A stretch of DNA of 64,000 nt from Malus domestica (lineage: Eukaryota; Streptophyta; Magnoliopsida; Rosales; Rosaceae), in NCBI RefSeq assembly GCF_042453785.1, contig NC_091675.1, positions 5,344,501 through 5,408,500 of the forward strand, read 5' to 3'. The notes below the pieces were generated by a model, which worked only from the letters and a program-made list of their open reading frames with translations, was not told the origin of the DNA and did not search any database. This document shows positions 3,412 to 62,571 of the stretch, in pieces (within the stretch, counting starts at the first letter, position 1; the number at the start of each line of letters is the position of its first letter). A program made the translations under genes and the position numbers.

Positions 3412-4918
3412 ATGAGCTCCAAAAATGTCAAACAAATTTCAGAGTGGTTTATCTACCCACACCATGCTTCTGAAGAGTCAAAGAAGCCGTTCTACTTGAC
3501 ACCAAATGATCTGGCGTTGCTTTCTGTACACTATATCCAAAGGGGCCTTCTCTTTACGAAACCACCAGAAGCAATATTAGATCAGAAAAACTTCACCAAT
3601 TCTCTGTTGGAAAGGCTCAAGCAGTCTCTTTCCATTGCGCTTGTTCATTTCTACCCACTCGCAGGTCGCTTGGTGACCACAAAATCTGAGGACCCGGCTT
3701 TGTATTTGGTGTATGTAGATTGCAACAACAGCCCTGGAGCCAAATTCATGTATGCAACTTTGGACATGTCAATCTCTGACATTCTTTCGCCAACTGATGT
3801 CCCGTTGGTGGTCCAATCATTTTTTGATCATGACAGGGCAGTCAACCATGATGGACATTTCATGTCTTTGGTGACGATTCAGGTCACGGAACTTGTGGAT
3901 GGCATCTTCATAGGACTTTCCATGAATCACTGCCTTGGTGATGGAACCTCGTTCTGGCATTTCTTCAACATTTGGTCTGAAATTTTTCAAGCACAAGCAC
4001 AAGGAGGTCATAGTAATTTTGTAGCCACTATCTCACGCCCACCTGTCCTCAAGCGCTGGTTTCCAGATGGTCATGGTCCAATTATCAGCCTCCCTTTCAA
4101 ACACTCAGATGAGTTCATTGGCAGATTTGAAGCTCCCCCACTCAGGGAGAGAATGTTTCACTTCACCGCAGAATCCATAGCCAAACTCAAAGCAAAGGCC
4201 AATGCGGAGTCTGACACCACCAAAATCTCTTCCTTCCAGGCTTTATCTGCCCTTCTCTGGCGCTCCATTACTCGAGCGCGTTGTCAACCACCTGATCAAG
4301 GAACCAGCTGCAGGCATGGTCTATTAATATCGATAATTATCCTCGAAACTTAGTCTTTCATTTAGTACATTACAATCAATTTTTTTTATATGATATTTCG
4401 ATATCTTCAGTAACATCAATATTGAATACCATGATTACAGGTTGGCTGCGAATAACAGAGCGAGATTAGACCCGCCACTGTCTGGAGACTATTTCGGGAA
4501 CTCAATTTACCCCATTAGTTCAAAAATGGTTCCAGCAGGTGAGCTGCTTGAACATGGGCTTGGATGGGCAGCGTGGAAGTTGCACGAGGCGGTGGTTAAC
4601 CACAATGACAAGGTGATACGAGAGCATACTAATGCGTGGCTGGAGTCTCCCGTTGTGTACCAAGTGAGTGTTTTTGAACCATCGAGTGTGACAATTGGGA
4701 GTTCGCCAAGATTCAACATGTATGGAACTGAATTTGGAATGGGAAAAGCGGTAGCACTTCGAAGTGGGTACGCACACAAGTTCAGTGGGAAGGTATCATC
4801 GTATGAAGGACGCAAAGAAGGAAGCATAGACACGGAGGTGTGTCTTCTACCTGATGCAATGAGCGCTCTTGAATGTGACAAGGAGTTTATGGAATTTGTC
4901 TCTGTATCACATTATTAG
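3412..4918 (+). CDS. BAHD acyltransferase, copy 2
   Basis: Exons 3412-4313 and 4441-4918 give 459 residues, the same length as copy 1 and mostly identical to it. HxxxDG reads HCLGDG, and the DFGWG motif is again EFGMG, so that departure predates the duplication. The intron also uses a GC donor (CAG|GC at 4313/4314) and an AG acceptor at 4439-4440, and a decoy GT lies five bases downstream. The equivalent of the upstream ATG of copy 1 is lost, which fixes the start at 3412. The promoter differs from copy 1: the TATA-like site is CATAAAA and a solo LTR ends about 140 bases upstream of the ATG, so expression may have diverged. Substrate unknown. Confidence 0.88.
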
Positions 4919-36555: not shown

Positions 36556-36929
36556 AGCTAAGGATGTCATATGCATGCACAAGGGCATGATGATTCCTTT
36601 GGACCCCTCAAATTACGCAGTGTTGCTGGTTTTGGTGTTAATGTAAAAGTTATTAGAGGGACCTTCTTTCTGTTTCTTTCTTTCCGGCTCTTTTGTTCTT
36701 TTAGGTCCCCCACACACCAAAAGCTTTGATGGTTTTGATTTTCTTTTCTTTCACTTTTGGACTGACAATCTGTGGTCTCTGTTGACGTGTCGCGTAAACC
36801 AGAAAAATGCAGCTACTTACTAAAAGATCATGAAACCCATTTCCGATCATCACTGAAATTCTGATAGTAATTGCTGTACTTCTCTGTATGAAACTAGTAA
36901 TTTACGGCCACTACAGGACTTGACACTAT

Positions 36930-38387
36930 TAGGGGTGGTTCGGTATGGGATCCCATACCGAAACTCTTGTCCCGATTCCCATACCGAAATTTTTGGGAAT
37001 CTCAATTTCAATACCGATCCCAAACCAAATTTTCGGGAATCCCAATTTTCGGGAATCCCGAAATAATTTCGGGACAAATCGGGAATCCCGAAATAATTTT
37101 GGGCTTTTGGGCTTTTGGACAAAAAAAGCTAATATTGGTCCAATTGGACAAAAACCTAATATTGGGCCGTGCCCACTGAATGTAACAGCCCCATATGGGC
37201 TTAACTTGATTCAATCAAATAAGAAGACATGACCTTCATATCGAAAGCCAAAACTAAATAGCACGAATTTTGTCAAGAAGACATGACCTTCAGTTTCTGT
37301 GACTCAAGTTCCACTCCTTTTGCTTATCTAGTTACAGTCAAAACTAAATAGCACGAATTTTGTCAAGATATAACCTTCATATCGAAAGCCAAAAGTTCCA
37401 TAAATTCACCCCCACCCGAATTTCACCAAATGAAAGAAGACATTCGAGAAAATATATAACATGTTTTAAAACAAAGTTCACACTCTACAAATCAAATTAA
37501 ATGCGAAAACATGCCCCGAACTACAAGTAGATTATACACATCAAATTCATAAGACTGGACTGATAAAGAGAAAAGGCATCGCATTATTATAAGAACAAGA
37601 ATTCCCAGTGCCTAATAACAAAAAATGCTAAATTGAAACCAGAAATAAGAAAACCAACCACTTACCGGGGGTTGAGCAGTCCGCTGGGCCGCCTCGATGT
37701 TCCCAGTAAGCTGCGAGAGCTGCGAAAGCGCTGCCACGGCCGCTGGATTCAACCCACCATAGCCCGAGCTCGAATCCACCTGCTGCTTCTGATCCTCCGC
37801 AACCCCATGTGGGTAATACGCATTCTGCAAATGGGTCGGGTCAGGATCCGCCGTTTGTGGCTGTTGGGGCGGAAGTGGGACCCCGGGAGGATGAATCGAA
37901 ATGGGTTCTTGATGGTATTGGTGGTGGTGGGCGGTGGCGTAATCCTGGGTGGTGGTGGTGGGATTGTAGTATTGTTGGTATTGTTGTTGGTGGTCGGATT
38001 GTTGGGGGTGATTGTAGGGATAATAGGCCTGGTAGGAATAGGATTGGTCGTAGGATTGGATTCTTGAGGGATCGAATGAACGGAGGAACTGAAATGTGAT
38101 CTGACCTAAAAACAAATCAACGGCATAGATTAAATCCAAAATAATCAACGGTTGAAATAATTCTCTTATAATTAAAAAATTATATATATATATATATTTT
38201 TTTTTTTCGGTTCGGTATGGGAATACCGAAAAAATGAAATGCAATACCGAATCCCATACCGAAACTTTCGGTTTGGTTTGGGATTACGTCCCGAAAATTT
38301 CGGGAATTTTGGTTTGGGATTTTTTTGGTTTGGGATCGGGATTTTTTTGGTTTGGTTTGGGATTTTTGGGATTTTTTTCCAGCCCTA
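36930..38387. mobile_element. Pack-hAT: non-autonomous hAT transposon carrying a host exon
   Basis: Ends TAGGGGTGG and CCAGCCCTA are inverted repeats, and the 8-bp target GACACTAT is duplicated exactly (36922-36929 and 38388-38395). The empty site is seen in subtilase copy 2 (GATACTAT near 60315). The subterminal regions are packed with TCGGGATTCCC and CGGTATGGG words in both orientations. No transposase is present in its 1,458 bases. The interior contains a captured exon with flanking introns (37666-38105) and a partial internal duplication (about 37218-37285 and 37338-37394). Confidence 0.9.
37666..38105 (-). pseudogene. captured exon of a Q/Y/P-rich protein
   Basis: On the minus strand a 440-base open exon is bounded by a TTTTTAG acceptor and a GTAAGT donor, so intron sequence was taken along with it. 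It encodes a low-complexity Gln/Tyr/His/Pro-rich stretch (SYDQSYSYQAYYPYNHPQQ and further) ending in GGLNPAAVAALSQLSQL. This resembles the tails of plant RNA-binding proteins, but I cannot name the donor. There is no start codon or promoter of its own that I can point to. Confidence 0.65.
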
Positions 38388-41300
38388 GACACTATGTGAT
38401 TATATTGATCAATCCATTTCAGATGGCCATACGTCACCTTCGAAGCGTTGCTATCATTCTCGACTCTCAACGTGAAACCTTGTTCTTGATTCTTTCCAGT
38501 GAATGATAGAGTGCTAGGTTCCACTGCAATCTTCATTCCTTTAGGAACCTCCAAATATGCAAATTAACTTGATGCATCATCTCCCACATTTGTCACAACC
38601 CTAGTGAAGTTTTTTGCTTTCGGAGAGTTGTCTGTGCCGTTGAAGATGGCTATAAAAGAAGGGTAGTTTAGCTCAGTAGGTTGTTGCCTGCAACTCCATT
38701 GATTTCGTCGGATAACAGCGCTCATCTGCTTGGTAGTGTATCCAAGGCCACATAGAAACTCGATATAGTCCTGCACATCCATGTCATAGACGAGTCCAGG
38801 ATTCATGGCTCTGTTCGGGTTGATATGGCCTGCACCGAACTCTAAAGGCGTGGCAGCAAGACTTTTATGGTGTTTCCAGTGTTGTCGAGGTTGTATGCTG
38901 TGGTCATGATCGCTGATCGAATGGCAGCAGGGCTCCATTCGTGGTGAACAGCCTTTAGGAGAGCTACAGCTCCTGCAACATGAGGTGCTGCCATTGATGT
39001 CCCTAATATTAGTTGATAGTCTGACGCCAAATTATAGTTGTTTACTTCCATGAACCTCTTGTTAGGTGCAACTGCAGCGAGTACATCAACACCGGGAGCA
39101 ATTATGTCGGGTTTTAGAATTCTTGGGGTGATGGGGTCTGGTCCTCTTGAAGACAAAAACGCCACTTGCGATGCCGGTTTTGTCCCCAGATTGGTGTTTA
39201 CAAAGGTAAGGGTTTTAACTTGAGTTGTATTGGCTCTTGTTGCATACTCTTTAATTAAATAGCCTTTTGCCATTGGTAGAATTAAAGCAGGAATGGTGAA
39301 TGCGTTTCTTACCTCTTCCAGCTGTCCATCAATGCCACCTCCCCTGGGATTATCACAGAAGAGTACTTTTTCAGCCACTTCTTTCTGATCTAATGCCCCA
39401 AAATCGCATGTTGATTTCCTCACGCTGTCTTTCCCGTAGTACAACGGTTTATCAGCACTGTAAACGCTTTTGGGGAAGTATGATTCTCCTTCAACTGTGA
39501 ATCCATTGTCTAGAGTCAAGGTTGCAGTGGAAGTACGATCAAGTGTGCCAGCTCCTACTGTCGTGATTCAGGGTGCTCCATTGTAGGTTGAGTTACGAGA
39601 AGGACCATCATTCCCAGCAGCGCATAGGACAACAATTCCCTTCTCAACTACTGAAAGAGAACCGATGGCAATGATATCATTGTAGTAAGGAAGGAAGTCG
39701 AAGCCAAGAGACAGTGACATGATATCAATACCATCAGAAATTGCCTGATCCATCCAGGCAAGCACATCACTAGCTGCACTCTTATTTGAATATGCCACCC
39801 ACAAGACCTTGTACATGGCAACATGTGAGTGCGGTGCCACCCCTCTTGCCGTGCCTTTTGCATATCCAAAATGACTTGCGCTGAGCACATGGTTGCCTGC
39901 AGCTGTCGATGATGTGTGTGTTGCGTGACCAGAGAAGTCTCTGGGTGAATCCTAGTCATATTCTTTGCTAATCGGTATACCTGCAGCCTTGTGCCCTTTG
40001 CTGAAAGATCGAGCACCAATGAGCTTCTTGTTGCAGAGAGACGGGGTAAATGCAGTTCCATTCTCGCACACGCCTTTCCATCTTAATGGCACCTCTGACA
40101 TTCCCTTATCGCCGAAACTTTCACTTTCTGGCCAAATTCCTGAATCAAGAATACCTATGATCACATCTTGGCCAAATGAGGCATTAGGCCATAAACCGAG
40201 ATTCTGCCTAAGTCCAAGAAACTTAGGGCCGTGAGTTGTGAACATCTTGCCAAAAAACTCGGGATACGTGGCAACATGAGCCGGGGATTTCTCCAATCTA
40301 GACAGCTGAGAAGGAGTGAGCCTTGCACTGAACCCATGCATGACATGGCTGTATGAGTACAGCAACATTTCACTGCCATCACCGTTTTCTGCAGGAGACG
40401 AAGACGACAATGACTTTACGGTGGACTTGTGCCAAGCTTCGTGCGTTAAGAACGATTCGGGTTTGTGGGAATGATCCATGTGAATGATGTACGTCTGGAT
40501 TTCCTCAACATTCGATACTGCATTGTTGATCTGCAACAGCGTTAACAACAGAAGTGTGGTCATGCTGGACAAATCCATCTTTCTAGTTATCGATTTGCAA
40601 ATAATAGACGATTTTCGAGCTTTAAAAGAACCATTGTTGATTAGCGAATGATGTTGACCTTCCTTGTTTAAACGCAAAACGTTATGTTCAAGGTCCGATC
40701 GAGTTTAGAATAAACTTCTGGTCGATATTGTCTATGTCAAAACAAAAGGCTTGAATAGATAAAACAAAAGGCTAATGGTTTATGTCGATGCTACTTAAGA
40801 GAGATTGGACAGGCATCATTGTCTGACTTGATAGCCTGCATTTTCCTTCTGTTTTTTTTGTTTTTGTTTTTTTTTTTTTTTTTTTTGGTTCTATCCTTGG
40901 GAGTTCTAACCTAAGTCTCTTAAAACCAATATACACGTCTTAATGTCAAAACCGACAGAAACTTACCTATTACAGAGTGTGTAGCGACATGACCGTATCA
41001 CAGAGTGTGTAGCGACATGACCGTTTCTCTCTTCTCTCGCCTTATAGTAAGAGAATGATTAAAGAATACACACTACAAGTTGAGGTTCTCTATTTTCAGT
41101 AATAAGAAGATAAAAGAAATTTGGTTTACTACAACCATAAGACATCAAGGGAAACTGGCGAAATCATGCGAGAACAAACTTTATACAATGAGATTCCAAT
41201 GAAAACGTGAGATTTACTACTTCAGCCACGGACGCTACTTTATGGTGAAAGAAGGGATTGTTTTGGGTCATAAAGTTTCAGTCGAAGGCATCGAAGTAGA

Positions 41301-56230: not shown

Positions 56231-58000
56231 TTTCCAGCCTTGTCAGCACCTGTCACACGCACACTCAGCTTTGCGGAAATTATGGGCATTCTGTCAAAGA
56301 CTTCTGGGGAAGTAGAAAACACATGAATCTTACTGTTCAATCACCCACTTCCCACACGCAACAATAGCTCATGGGTACCACAGATAACTTTGCCAAAGTT
56401 CTCTGCCAAAGTTGAGCACGTGAAGCTTGTAGCTCCCACTACATCGCTCTGACCAAGAAGGGTAAAAAAATAGCAAAGAAACAGCACTAACAAAGTTTAG
56501 ACCCATAAATTTTGAAGGTCTAGCTACCATATTATTACCCACAAGGGTAAAGGAACAGTACCACTGCTGGATAATTGGAAAGTCCATGTATGTCAACCTC
56601 TGTGCTTCGTGGCAAGGTAGACTAGCAAACATGCCCAACCTTTACTCACATTCGAGAAAACACTCCCAATAAGATTGCTTGCTCCAAAATCGAAGAGGCA
56701 CCGTCCTCCGAATCTAAAGAGCCAGACTCCCAACATGACTACTTTCTTAAAAATCGAAGAGATGGTAAAGGAACAGTACCATTGCTGGATAATTGGAAAG
56801 TCCCTGTGTGTCAACCTCTGTGCTTCGTGGCAAGGTAGACTAGCAAACATGCCCAACCTTTACTCACATTCGAGAAAACACTCCCAACAAGATTGCTTGC
56901 TCCAAAATCGAAGAGGCACCACCCTCCGAATCTCGAGAGCCACTCTCCCAACATGATTACTTTCTCAAAAATCGAAGAGACACTGCTCCTCGAATCTCGA
57001 GAGCCAGACCCCCAGCATGATTGCTTTCTCAAAAATCGGTGAGGCACCGTTCTCTGAATCAATCGAAGAGGCGCTCGCTTTCTCAAAAGCTGGGCTGCTC
57101 AGAGACCACGAGGGCCGATCTCAGAAATCGAAGAGGCACCTACTTTTCTAGCCTTGTCAGCACCTGTCACACGCACACTCAGCTTTGCAGAAATTATGGG
57201 CATTTTGTCGAAGACTTCTGGTGAAGTAGAAAGCACATGAATCTTACTGTTCAATCACCCACTTCCCACACGCAACAATAACTCATGGGTACCACAGATC
57301 ACTTTGCCAAAGTTCTCTGCCAAAGTTGAGCACGTGAAGCTTGCAGCTCCCACTACATCGCTCTGACCAAGAAAGGTAAAAGAATAGCAAAGAAACAGCA
57401 CTAACAAAGTTTAGACACATAAATTTTGAAGGTCTAGCTACCATATTATTACCCACAAGGGTAAAGGAACAGTACCACTGCTGGATAATTGGAAAGTCCC
57501 TGTGTGTCAACCTCTGTGCTTCGTGGCAAGGTAGACTAGCAAACATGCCCAACCTTTACTCACATTCGAGAAAACAGTCCTAACAAGATTGCTTGCTCCA
57601 AAATCGAAGAGGCACCGTCCTCCGAATCTCGAGAGCCAGACTCCCAACATGACTACTTTCTCAAAATCGAAGAGAGGGTAAAGGAACAGTACCATTGCTG
57701 GATAATTGGAAAGTCCCTGTGTGTCAACCTTTGTGCTTCATGGCAAGGTAGACTAGCAAACATGTCCAACCTTTACTCACATTCGAGACAACACTCCCAA
57801 CAAGATTGCTTGCTCCAAAATCGAAGAGGCACTGCCTTCCGAATCTCGAGAGCCAGACTCCCAACATGATTACTTCCTCAAAAATCGAAGAGACACTGCT
57901 CTCCGAATCTCGAGAGTCAGACCCCCAGCATGATTGCTTTCTCAAAAATCGAAGAGGCATCGTTCTCCGAATCTCGAGAGCCAGATACCACAGACCACTT
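56200..58000. repeat. higher-order tandem duplication, about 0.91-kb period with 215-base subunits
   Basis: The block from 56203 recurs at 57117 (period 914): CACCTACTTTT, GTCACACGCACACTCAGC and so on. Within it a subunit beginning GGTAAAGGAACAGTACCA recurs at about 56546, 56765, 57461 and 57677, each followed by TGCTTCGTGGCAAGG and AAAATCGAAGAGGCACC. Small ORFs inside are repetitive by-products. Confidence 0.75.
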
Positions 58001-60285: not shown

Positions 60286-62571
60286 CTAGTAATTTACGAC
60301 CACTACCGGGCTTGATACTATGTGGTTATGTTGATCAATCCATTTCAGATACCCATACGTCACCTTCGGAGCGTTGCTATCGATCTCTACTCTCAACACG
60401 AAACCTTGTTCTTGATTCTGTCCCGTGAATGTTAGAGTGCTAGGCTCCACTGCGATCTTCATTCCTTTAGGAACCTCCAAGAATGCAAAGTAACTTGATG
60501 CATCATCTCCCACATTTGTCACAACCCTGGTAAAGTTTTTTGCTTTCGGAGAGTTGTCTGTGCTGTTGAAGATGGCTATAAAAGAAGGGTAGTTTAGCTC
60601 AGTAGGTTGTTGCCTGCAACTCCATTGATTTCGTCGGATCACAGCGCTCATCTGCTTGGTAGTGTATCCGAGGCCACATAGAAACTCGATATAATCCTGC
60701 ACATCCATGTCATAGACGAGTCCAGGATTCATGGCTCTGTTCGGGTTGATATGGCCTGCACCGAATTGTAAAGGTGTGGCAGCAAGACCGTCTCGTTGGT
60801 CTTTTATGGTGGTTCTAGTGTTGTCGAGGTTATACGCTGTGGTCATGATCGCTGATCGAATGGCAGCAGGGCTCCATTCGCGGTGAACAGCCTTTAGGAG
60901 AGCTACAACTCCTGCAACATGGGGTGCTGCCATTGATGTCCCTGACATTAGTTGATAGTCTGAAGCCAAATTATAGTTGTTTACTTCCATCAACATCTTG
61001 TTAGGTGCAACTGCAGCGAGTACATCAACACCGGGAGCAAGAATGTCGGGTTTTAGAATGCTTGGGGTGATGGGGTCAGGTCCTCTTGAAGAGAAAGACG
61101 CTACTTCCGGTGCCGGTTTTGTCCCCAAATTGGTGTGCAAAAAGGTAAGGGTTTTAACTTTAGTTGTATTGGCTCTTGTTGCATACTCCTTAATTAAAGA
61201 GCCTTTCGCCATTGGTAGAACCAAAGCAGGAATGGTGAAGTCTTCAGCGTACAAATCTGGCATATCTGACACAAAGATTGCAGCGTAAGCGCCTGCGTTT
61301 TTTACCTCTTCAAGTTGTCCATCAATGTCACCCCCCTGGGGATTATCACAGAAGACTACTTTTCCAGCCACTTCTTTGTGATCTAATGCCCCAAAGTTGC
61401 ACGTTGATTTGCTAACGCTGTCTTTCCCGTAGTATAACGGTTTATCAGCAATGTAAACGCTTTCGGGGAAGTATGATTCTCCTTCAACTGTGTAGCCGTT
61501 GTCTAGAGTCAATGTTGCAGTGAAAGTACGATCAAGTGTGCCAGCTCCTACTGTTGTGATCCAGGGTGCTCCATTATGTGTTGAGTTATCAGAAGGACCA
61601 TCATTCCCAGCAGCACATACAACAGCAATTCCCTTCTCAACTGCTGAAAGAGAACTGATGGCAATTATATCATTGTAGTAAGGAGAGACGTCGAAGCCAA
61701 GAGACAGTGACATGATATCAACACCATCAGAAATCGCCTGATCCATCCCGGCAAGCACATCACTAGCTGCACTCTCTTCTGAATCTGTCGCCCACAAGAC
61801 CTTGTACATGGCAACGTGGGCGCGTGGCGCCACCCCTCTTGCCGTGCCCTTTGCATATCCGAAATGACTTGCACTGAGCACATGGTTGCCTGCAGCTGTC
61901 GATGATGTGTGTGTTCCGTGACCGAAGAAGTCTCTCGGCGAATCATAGTCATATTGTCTGGAAATCGGTATGCCTGCAGCTTCGAGCCCTTTGCTGAAAG
62001 ATCGAGCACCAATGAGCTTCTTGTTGCAAAGAGACGTGGTGAATGCAGTTCCATTCTCGCACACGCCTTTCCATCTTAATGGCACCTCTGACATTCCCTT
62101 ATCGCTGAAACTCTCACTTTCTGGCCAAATTCCTGTATCAATAATTCCTATGATCACATCTTGGCCAAATGAGGCATTAGGCCATAGACCGAGGTTCTGC
62201 CTAAGTCCAAGAAACTTAGGGCTGTGAGTTGTGAACATCTTGCCAAAAGACTCGGGATACGTGGCAACATGAGCCGGGGATTTCTCCAATCTAGACAACT
62301 GAGAAGGAGTGAGCCTTGCACTGAACCCATGCATGACATGGCTGTATGAGTACAGCAACATTTCACTGCCATCACCGTTTTCTGCAGGAGACGAAGACGA
62401 CAATGACTTTACGGTGGACTTGTGCCACGCTTCGTGCGTTAAGAACGATTCGGGTTTGTGGGAATGATCCATGTGAATGATGTACGTCTGGATTTCCTCA
62501 ACATTCGATACTGCATTGTTGATCTGCAACAGCATTAACAACAGAAGTGTGGTCATGCTGGACAAATCCAT
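60286..62571 (-). CDS. subtilisin-like serine protease, SBT1 type (SBT1.9-like)
   Basis: A single exon of 761 residues, normal for SBT1. These secreted proteases act in the cell wall on proteins and peptide precursors. From the start MDLSSMTT there is a hydrophobic signal peptide (to about 22), an I9 propeptide (about 29-120), and the S8 domain with D145 (DTGIWPE), H218 (GHGTHT), N323 (AAGNDGP) and S546 (GTSMAAP). A protease-associated insert (about 330-460) and a C-terminal Fn3-like domain ending SSPVVVVNY follow. An in-frame ATG 33 codons upstream exists, but that extension is basic and would bury the signal peptide, so it is leader. All catalytic residues are kept, unlike in copy 1. A close call between SBT1.8 and SBT1.9 is not possible by eye. 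Confidence 0.9.
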   Translation of the reverse strand: MDLSSMTTLLLLMLLQINNAVSNVEEIQTYIIHMDHSHKPESFLTHEAWHKSTVKSLSSSSPAENGDGSEMLLYSYSHVMHGFSARLTPSQLSRLEKSPAHVATYPESFGKMFTTHSPKFLGLRQNLGLWPNASFGQDVIIGIIDTGIWPESESFSDKGMSEVPLRWKGVCENGTAFTTSLCNKKLIGARSFSKGLEAAGIPISRQYDYDSPRDFFGHGTHTSSTAAGNHVLSASHFGYAKGTARGVAPRAHVAMYKVLWATDSEESAASDVLAGMDQAISDGVDIMSLSLGFDVSPYYNDIIAISSLSAVEKGIAVVCAAGNDGPSDNSTHNGAPWITTVGAGTLDRTFTATLTLDNGYTVEGESYFPESVYIADKPLYYGKDSVSKSTCNFGALDHKEVAGKVVFCDNPQGGDIDGQLEEVKNAGAYAAIFVSDMPDLYAEDFTIPALVLPMAKGSLIKEYATRANTTKVKTLTFLHTNLGTKPAPEVASFSSRGPDPITPSILKPDILAPGVDVLAAVAPNKMLMEVNNYNLASDYQLMSGTSMAAPHVAGVVALLKAVHREWSPAAIRSAIMTTAYNLDNTRTTIKDQRDGLAATPLQFGAGHINPNRAMNPGLVYDMDVQDYIEFLCGLGYTTKQMSAVIRRNQWSCRQQPTELNYPSFIAIFNSTDNSPKAKNFTRVVTNVGDDASSYFAFLEVPKGMKIAVEPSTLTFTGQNQEQGFVLRVEIDSNAPKVTYGYLKWIDQHNHIVSSPVVVVNY

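Follow-up and report, generated by a model that had tools for sequence, protein, structure and literature searches.

The question raised by this locus is whether a transposon inserted in a subtilase gene carries a piece of another host gene and, if so, how that piece came to lie inside it. The window, that is, the whole 64,000-nucleotide stretch analysed here (C15:5344501-5408500, within a genome searched over 651 Mb in 19 contigs), holds a 1458-bp element at 36930-38387 on the minus strand; the strand is given in the transposase-side orientation of the family, and the right end is the 5' side. We put at roughly 0.8 the probability that this element is a Pack-hAT whose interior was replaced once, through break repair, by a partial copy of a zinc-finger gene on C7, the composite then being transposed to at least five places.

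Structure and spread of the element

The element has the termini TAGGGGTGG and CCAGCCCTA, which form short terminal inverted repeats agreeing at 8 of 9 bases, and lies between two copies (36922-36929 and 38388-38395) of an exact 8-bp target-site duplication, GACACTAT; the ends and the duplication named in the initial annotation are both present in the sequence. The 1458 bp are made up of two transposon ends, a filler, and a piece of donor DNA, with no transposase of the element's own, so that it is non-autonomous. The left end (36930-37222, minus strand) is common to family members with other interiors, and the right end (38075-38387, minus strand) lies on the 5' side of the transposase gene wherever a member bears one.

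A genome search with the element and its repeats gave, among the best 40 of 1212 candidates, at least five near-full matches (97–100% identity), made up of the window copy and four others that align with nearly the whole element (97–99%), two interior-only matches (one on C7 and one on C2, the latter at 81%), and many matches to the transposon ends alone. The five cargo-sharing copies have five different 8-bp duplications and identical joins, and thus moved as a unit after capture. When up to three mismatches are allowed, the genome holds 287 occurrences of a 31-base left-end pattern (149 forward, 138 reverse) and 0 of its reversed control. Because there are four more copies with distinct duplications, and 287 left ends as opposed to none, the element is not a product of chance. 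Twenty regions were fetched, two of them being the donor and its paralogue and 18 being family loci, of which L021, L023, L026, and L027 are incomplete or split and went unscored. The 8-bp duplications are exact in all 15 complete elements scored (14 fetched and the window element), which are 954 to 5264 bp long, and in a sixteenth element, L037, the duplication agrees at 7 of 8 bases.

One relative on C17, L019 (C17:29587800-29595300), has the ends of the same family and an uninterrupted frame of 802 amino acids, with matches to Dimer_Tnp_hAT (1.2e-26) and hAT-like_RNase-H (3e-16); zf-BED scores 16.9 bits, under its cut-off of 20.6. Among 64 rows obtained by searching the genome with this protein (best 56 of 1029 candidates), L019 alone covers 1-802 at 90% identity or more without a stop, and its transposase gene has its 5' side where the window element has its right end. 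The 8-bp duplications, the terminal inverted repeats, and the dimerisation domain of this relative place the family in the hAT superfamily. L019 is assumed to supply the transposase, and is possibly active. Our search of the open-licence literature found no published description of this hAT family.

A piece of a zinc-finger gene inside the element

The initial annotation described a 440-base exon at 37666-38105, captured together with both of its splice sites. The stretch is there as described, on the minus strand, with TTTTTAG before it, GTAAGT after it, and the orientation of the subtilase. However, only one of the two splice sites came with the gene: GTAAGT (37660-37665) is donor sequence, whereas the acceptor-like TTTTTAG (38106-38112, minus strand) belongs to the transposon and recurs in 14 of the 15 family members compared, the fifteenth, L028, having TTATTAG. 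The first 26 bases of the supposed exon, 38080-38105, are transposon sequence as well. From an alignment of the five copies with C7 and C2, the captured DNA is 37290-38079, running from codon 21 of donor exon 1 through GTAAGT into intron 1. It consists of 414 bases of exon 1 that lack the ATG and the first 20 codons (37666-38079, minus strand), and of a portion of intron 1 (37290-37665, minus strand); the motif TCATT at 38075-38079 belongs to both transposon and donor. There was no Pfam match in the captured exon and no Rfam match in the 64-kb window, and no function is indicated for the captured piece.

The donor is a zinc-finger gene at C7:13468400-13469176, with 95.8% identity over 768 element positions, and the C2 locus is its diverged paralogue. 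The gene model for C7 comes from open reading frames alone; it comprises an exon with an ATG and a further frame that matches zf-met and zf-C2H2_jaz. The genome search leads to an existing donor locus, where the initial annotation had allowed that there might be none. Intron 1 of the donor later gained an insertion of ~300 bases, at about 4178-4475 of the fetched donor region (L013), which neither the element copies nor C2 contain.

The presence of intron sequence in the cargo shows that the source was genomic DNA rather than mRNA. The joins, the filler, and the small changes are common to all five copies, and there was therefore a single capture that spread afterwards. Intron distances are 0.026–0.032 between the copies and the donor and 0.174 between the donor and C2, which dates the capture to roughly one sixth of the C7–C2 split; whole-element distances among the five copies are 0.008–0.016. 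At nine positions all five copies differ from the donor in the same way, and there C2 has the base of the element five times, that of the donor three times, and neither once, so the donor has changed too. Three copies (that of the window, L010, and L011) keep the captured frame open, and two have it broken, L009 by a 1-base deletion and L012 by two stops; changes in the captured exon are too few for an estimate of selection rate. With an interior of host-gene DNA that exists on C7 without a transposon, no autonomy, and movement after capture, the window element is of the Pack-TYPE kind.

Cargo in relatives and the origin of the captures

Other family members carry different cargo, as the initial annotation had proposed to look for, and the interior is not common to all of them. 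Of the nine interior types, six (all except L018, L020, and L028) were used as genome queries, and all six match DNA outside the family. The cargo of L019 and of its deletion form L015 matches C5 at 97%, with kinase-domain frames close by, and that of L022 matches two C10 loci at 97–98% over about 1380 bases. In L024, the cargo matches C16 at 97% over 982 bases and is found in five places, while L016 carries a match to a DUF677 gene on C9 (98% over 247 bases) plus a C1 stretch at 91%. L017 and L037 have a C6 relative at about 87% for the larger part of their cargo, and a 126-base C12 piece at 97%; for the larger part of the L017 cargo, the genome search gave only this 87% relative, which resembles a MADS-box gene, and did not find the true donor. 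Two cargos are composites from unlinked loci: the C9 gene and C1 stretch of L016, and the C16 gene of L024, which sits inside C1 pieces of 63 and 31 bases, each 100% identical to one C1 coding frame.

Several details of these relatives stand apart from the main comparison. The C5 kinase-gene stretch of L019 lies in the 5' leader and is bordered on both sides by copies of one transposon stretch. A further 104 bases of the same element (3573-3676) are 91% like L038 286-382, DNA beside the C1 partner of the L016 cargo, which suggests that this partner may be repeat-like; L020 has no match to the 104-base stretch. For the final 74 bases of the L016 cargo (element about 567-640), the search gave at least eight further loci at 84–95%. 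A spliced (cDNA) capture was considered for L017 and rejected, since its ~600-base skip relative to the C6 relative starts within an intron rather than at a splice site; the skip resembles a jump at TGATC, a motif that reads TAATC in one of the two copies.

The joins are informative as to how foreign DNA entered. On its exon side, the window element has a join with a 5-bp overlap, and on its intron side it ends in two additional partial copies of a donor-intron stretch, a filler (37223-37289, minus strand) joined through overlaps of 3 and 4 bp. For seven joins from four element types (window, L016, L019, L024), which we chose as having both sources traceable up to the join, the overlaps are 5, 4, 6, 3, 2, 4, and 3 bp; their sum of 27 compares with a random mean of 5.0, and 0 of 20,000 draws reach it. 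With the two filler joins added and four gapped or unclear joins counted as zero, the sum is 34 versus 9.3 (1 of 20,000 draws). Taken alone, single joins are weak to moderate (P 0.002 to 0.18, with one at 0.18 and two at 0.05–0.06). No family end was found at ten donor-side or paralogue loci, among them the C7 donor and the C2 paralogue with 9.9 kb around each; the two C10 relatives of the L022 cargo are not among the ten.

We infer that the donor DNA was copied in during repair of a break in a transposon copy. Such a break would be repaired by copying donor DNA into the element with template switching: a 3' end in the right side of the transposon would switch at TCATT onto the donor exon, copying would run about 790 bases toward the donor intron, two slips on the intron template would produce the filler, and the copied strand would then be joined to the left side of the transposon. 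This reading is favoured because the joins have 2–6-bp overlaps, the filler is of donor-intron origin, elements were assembled from two unlinked loci, and no family end stands at the ten donor-side or paralogue loci. Weighing against it are the shortness of the overlaps, the modest P values of three single joins, our own choice of the joins to score, the possibly repeat-like C1 partner of L016, and the lack of a closer relative for the larger part of the L017 cargo.

It is possible, though not probable, that the composite was instead built by replication fork stalling with template switching (FoSTeST) and transposed thereafter. Microhomology at joins is likewise expected under FoSTeST, as is a spread in several copies, and the model has been described for multicopy elements in animals, in the portion of the work drawn on here (PMC8277862). 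Break repair and replication-based template switching leave identical marks; nothing in the present elements sets FoSTeST apart from excision-gap repair, and no donor lies close to an element in an arrangement that would give a test.

A rather unlikely origin is tandem insertion with re-mobilisation, in which two neighbouring family members flanking a donor piece move as one element. This model was reportedly proposed for Pack-TYPE elements by Catoni and colleagues in 2019. In the section consulted, Gisby and Catoni (2022, PMC8903248) favour it for Pack-TYPE elements, hAT included. Here, however, the ten donor-side or paralogue loci are free of family ends and the C7 donor remains in place, and the model does not yield elements from two loci, a piece interrupted by another, or slipped filler.

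Gene capture by hAT elements is already known, while the evidence here on how captures arose is better than usual; the view in the initial annotation that hAT capture is much less known is fair relative to Pack-MULEs, but cases are published for grapevine, maize, and animals. As far as the excerpted accounts of these cases go, the closest likeness is in Hatvine-6 of grapevine (Benjak et al. 2008, PMC2528002), where transposase and terminal repeats are common to members and the remainder is often unique, matching exons and introns of host genes; plant and family differ, and the analysis at the level of joins belongs to the present work. Captured fragments in maize Ds2 and Ds-l4 (Du et al. 2011, PMC3260210) also keep introns and have a donor on another chromosome, and repair of excision breaks was suggested there as the source. 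That part of the study covers two Ds2 and nine Ds-l4 cases and its authors leave the mechanism open, whereas in the present family the composite donors, filler, and overlaps are resolved. Maize Pack-hAT is likewise Pack-TYPE of the hAT superfamily, but in the available text re-mobilisation is favoured (PMC8903248), while the joins here point to template-switch copying. Animal Pack-TIR elements, including the frog Pack-hAT-N8_XT, resemble ours in microhomology at joins and in several copies with different duplications, though most cases in the extract at hand are single-copy and near their source (2021, PMC8277862).

The subtilase site and the prospect of spliced exons

The element interrupts subtilase copy 1 (36922-40578, minus strand), the upstream part of which lies at 38396-40578 and the last nine codons and stop of which lie beyond the element, before 36922. 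Copy 2 (60286-62571, minus strand) is a single uninterrupted frame of 803 codons (761 from the likely ATG). It supplies the empty site, as the initial annotation held: copy 2 is uninterrupted at 60314-60321, where the 8-mer is GATACTAT, one base different. Compared with copy 2, copy 1 is interrupted by three in-frame stops, carries a frameshift, and lacks 18 codons; it is a pseudogene beside an intact copy. Elsewhere in the window, 56546-56980 and 57458-57893 are two pairs of 217–218-bp tandem units at 94%.

The initial annotation further regarded the exon as ready for splicing into host transcripts, a claim that appears weak given a broken host and an insertion that falls within coding sequence, rather than in an intron, about nine codons ahead of the subtilase stop. 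Since the intact paralogue is one uninterrupted coding frame, no splice donor is expected at the host. A ready-made splice fusion at this subtilase is accordingly unlikely on its predicted gene structure, and the make-up of the host locus argues against chimeric host-exon transcripts.

Two readings would nevertheless give the acceptor-like motif a role. In the first, a very unlikely one, the family would be a repeated capture machine, with host DNA entering just inside the right end, behind the promoter side and the conserved acceptor-like motif. L019, the one relative with an uninterrupted full-length transposase frame among the best 56 of 1029 candidates, did take up kinase-gene DNA just inside its right end. 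If this reading were true, the transposon would be a standing trap through which captured exons come to be expressed as chimeric exons. In the second, slightly less likely still, the transposon acceptor and the captured donor site would act as a cassette adding an exon to host transcripts. The near-constant acceptor-like motif, the GTAAGT within the captured piece, and a window-copy frame that is open from acceptor to GTAAGT are in line with this, and the cited part of PMC8903248 describes a maize Pack-hAT from which a gene obtained a new splice donor. Against it stand the state of the host and the position of the insertion, a length of 440 bases that is not a multiple of three, an open frame without ATG, a captured frame broken in two of the five copies, and the lack of a strong donor motif ahead of the acceptor inside the element (five motifs tried).

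That this is an ordinary hAT interior common to the family, the C7 locus then being a transposon copy that has decayed, fits only the five near-identical interiors and can be set aside, as other members have different interiors and the C7 gene has an ATG, zf-met/zf-C2H2_jaz exon matches, a paralogue on C2, and, over 9.9 kb, no transposon ends nearby.

It is not yet settled by what route cut-and-paste transposons acquire genes. The present family offers several captures with identified donors, and its joins favour template-switch copying over tandem re-mobilisation. Together with a possibly active relative, this set of captures could allow the question to be tested within a single plant genome.
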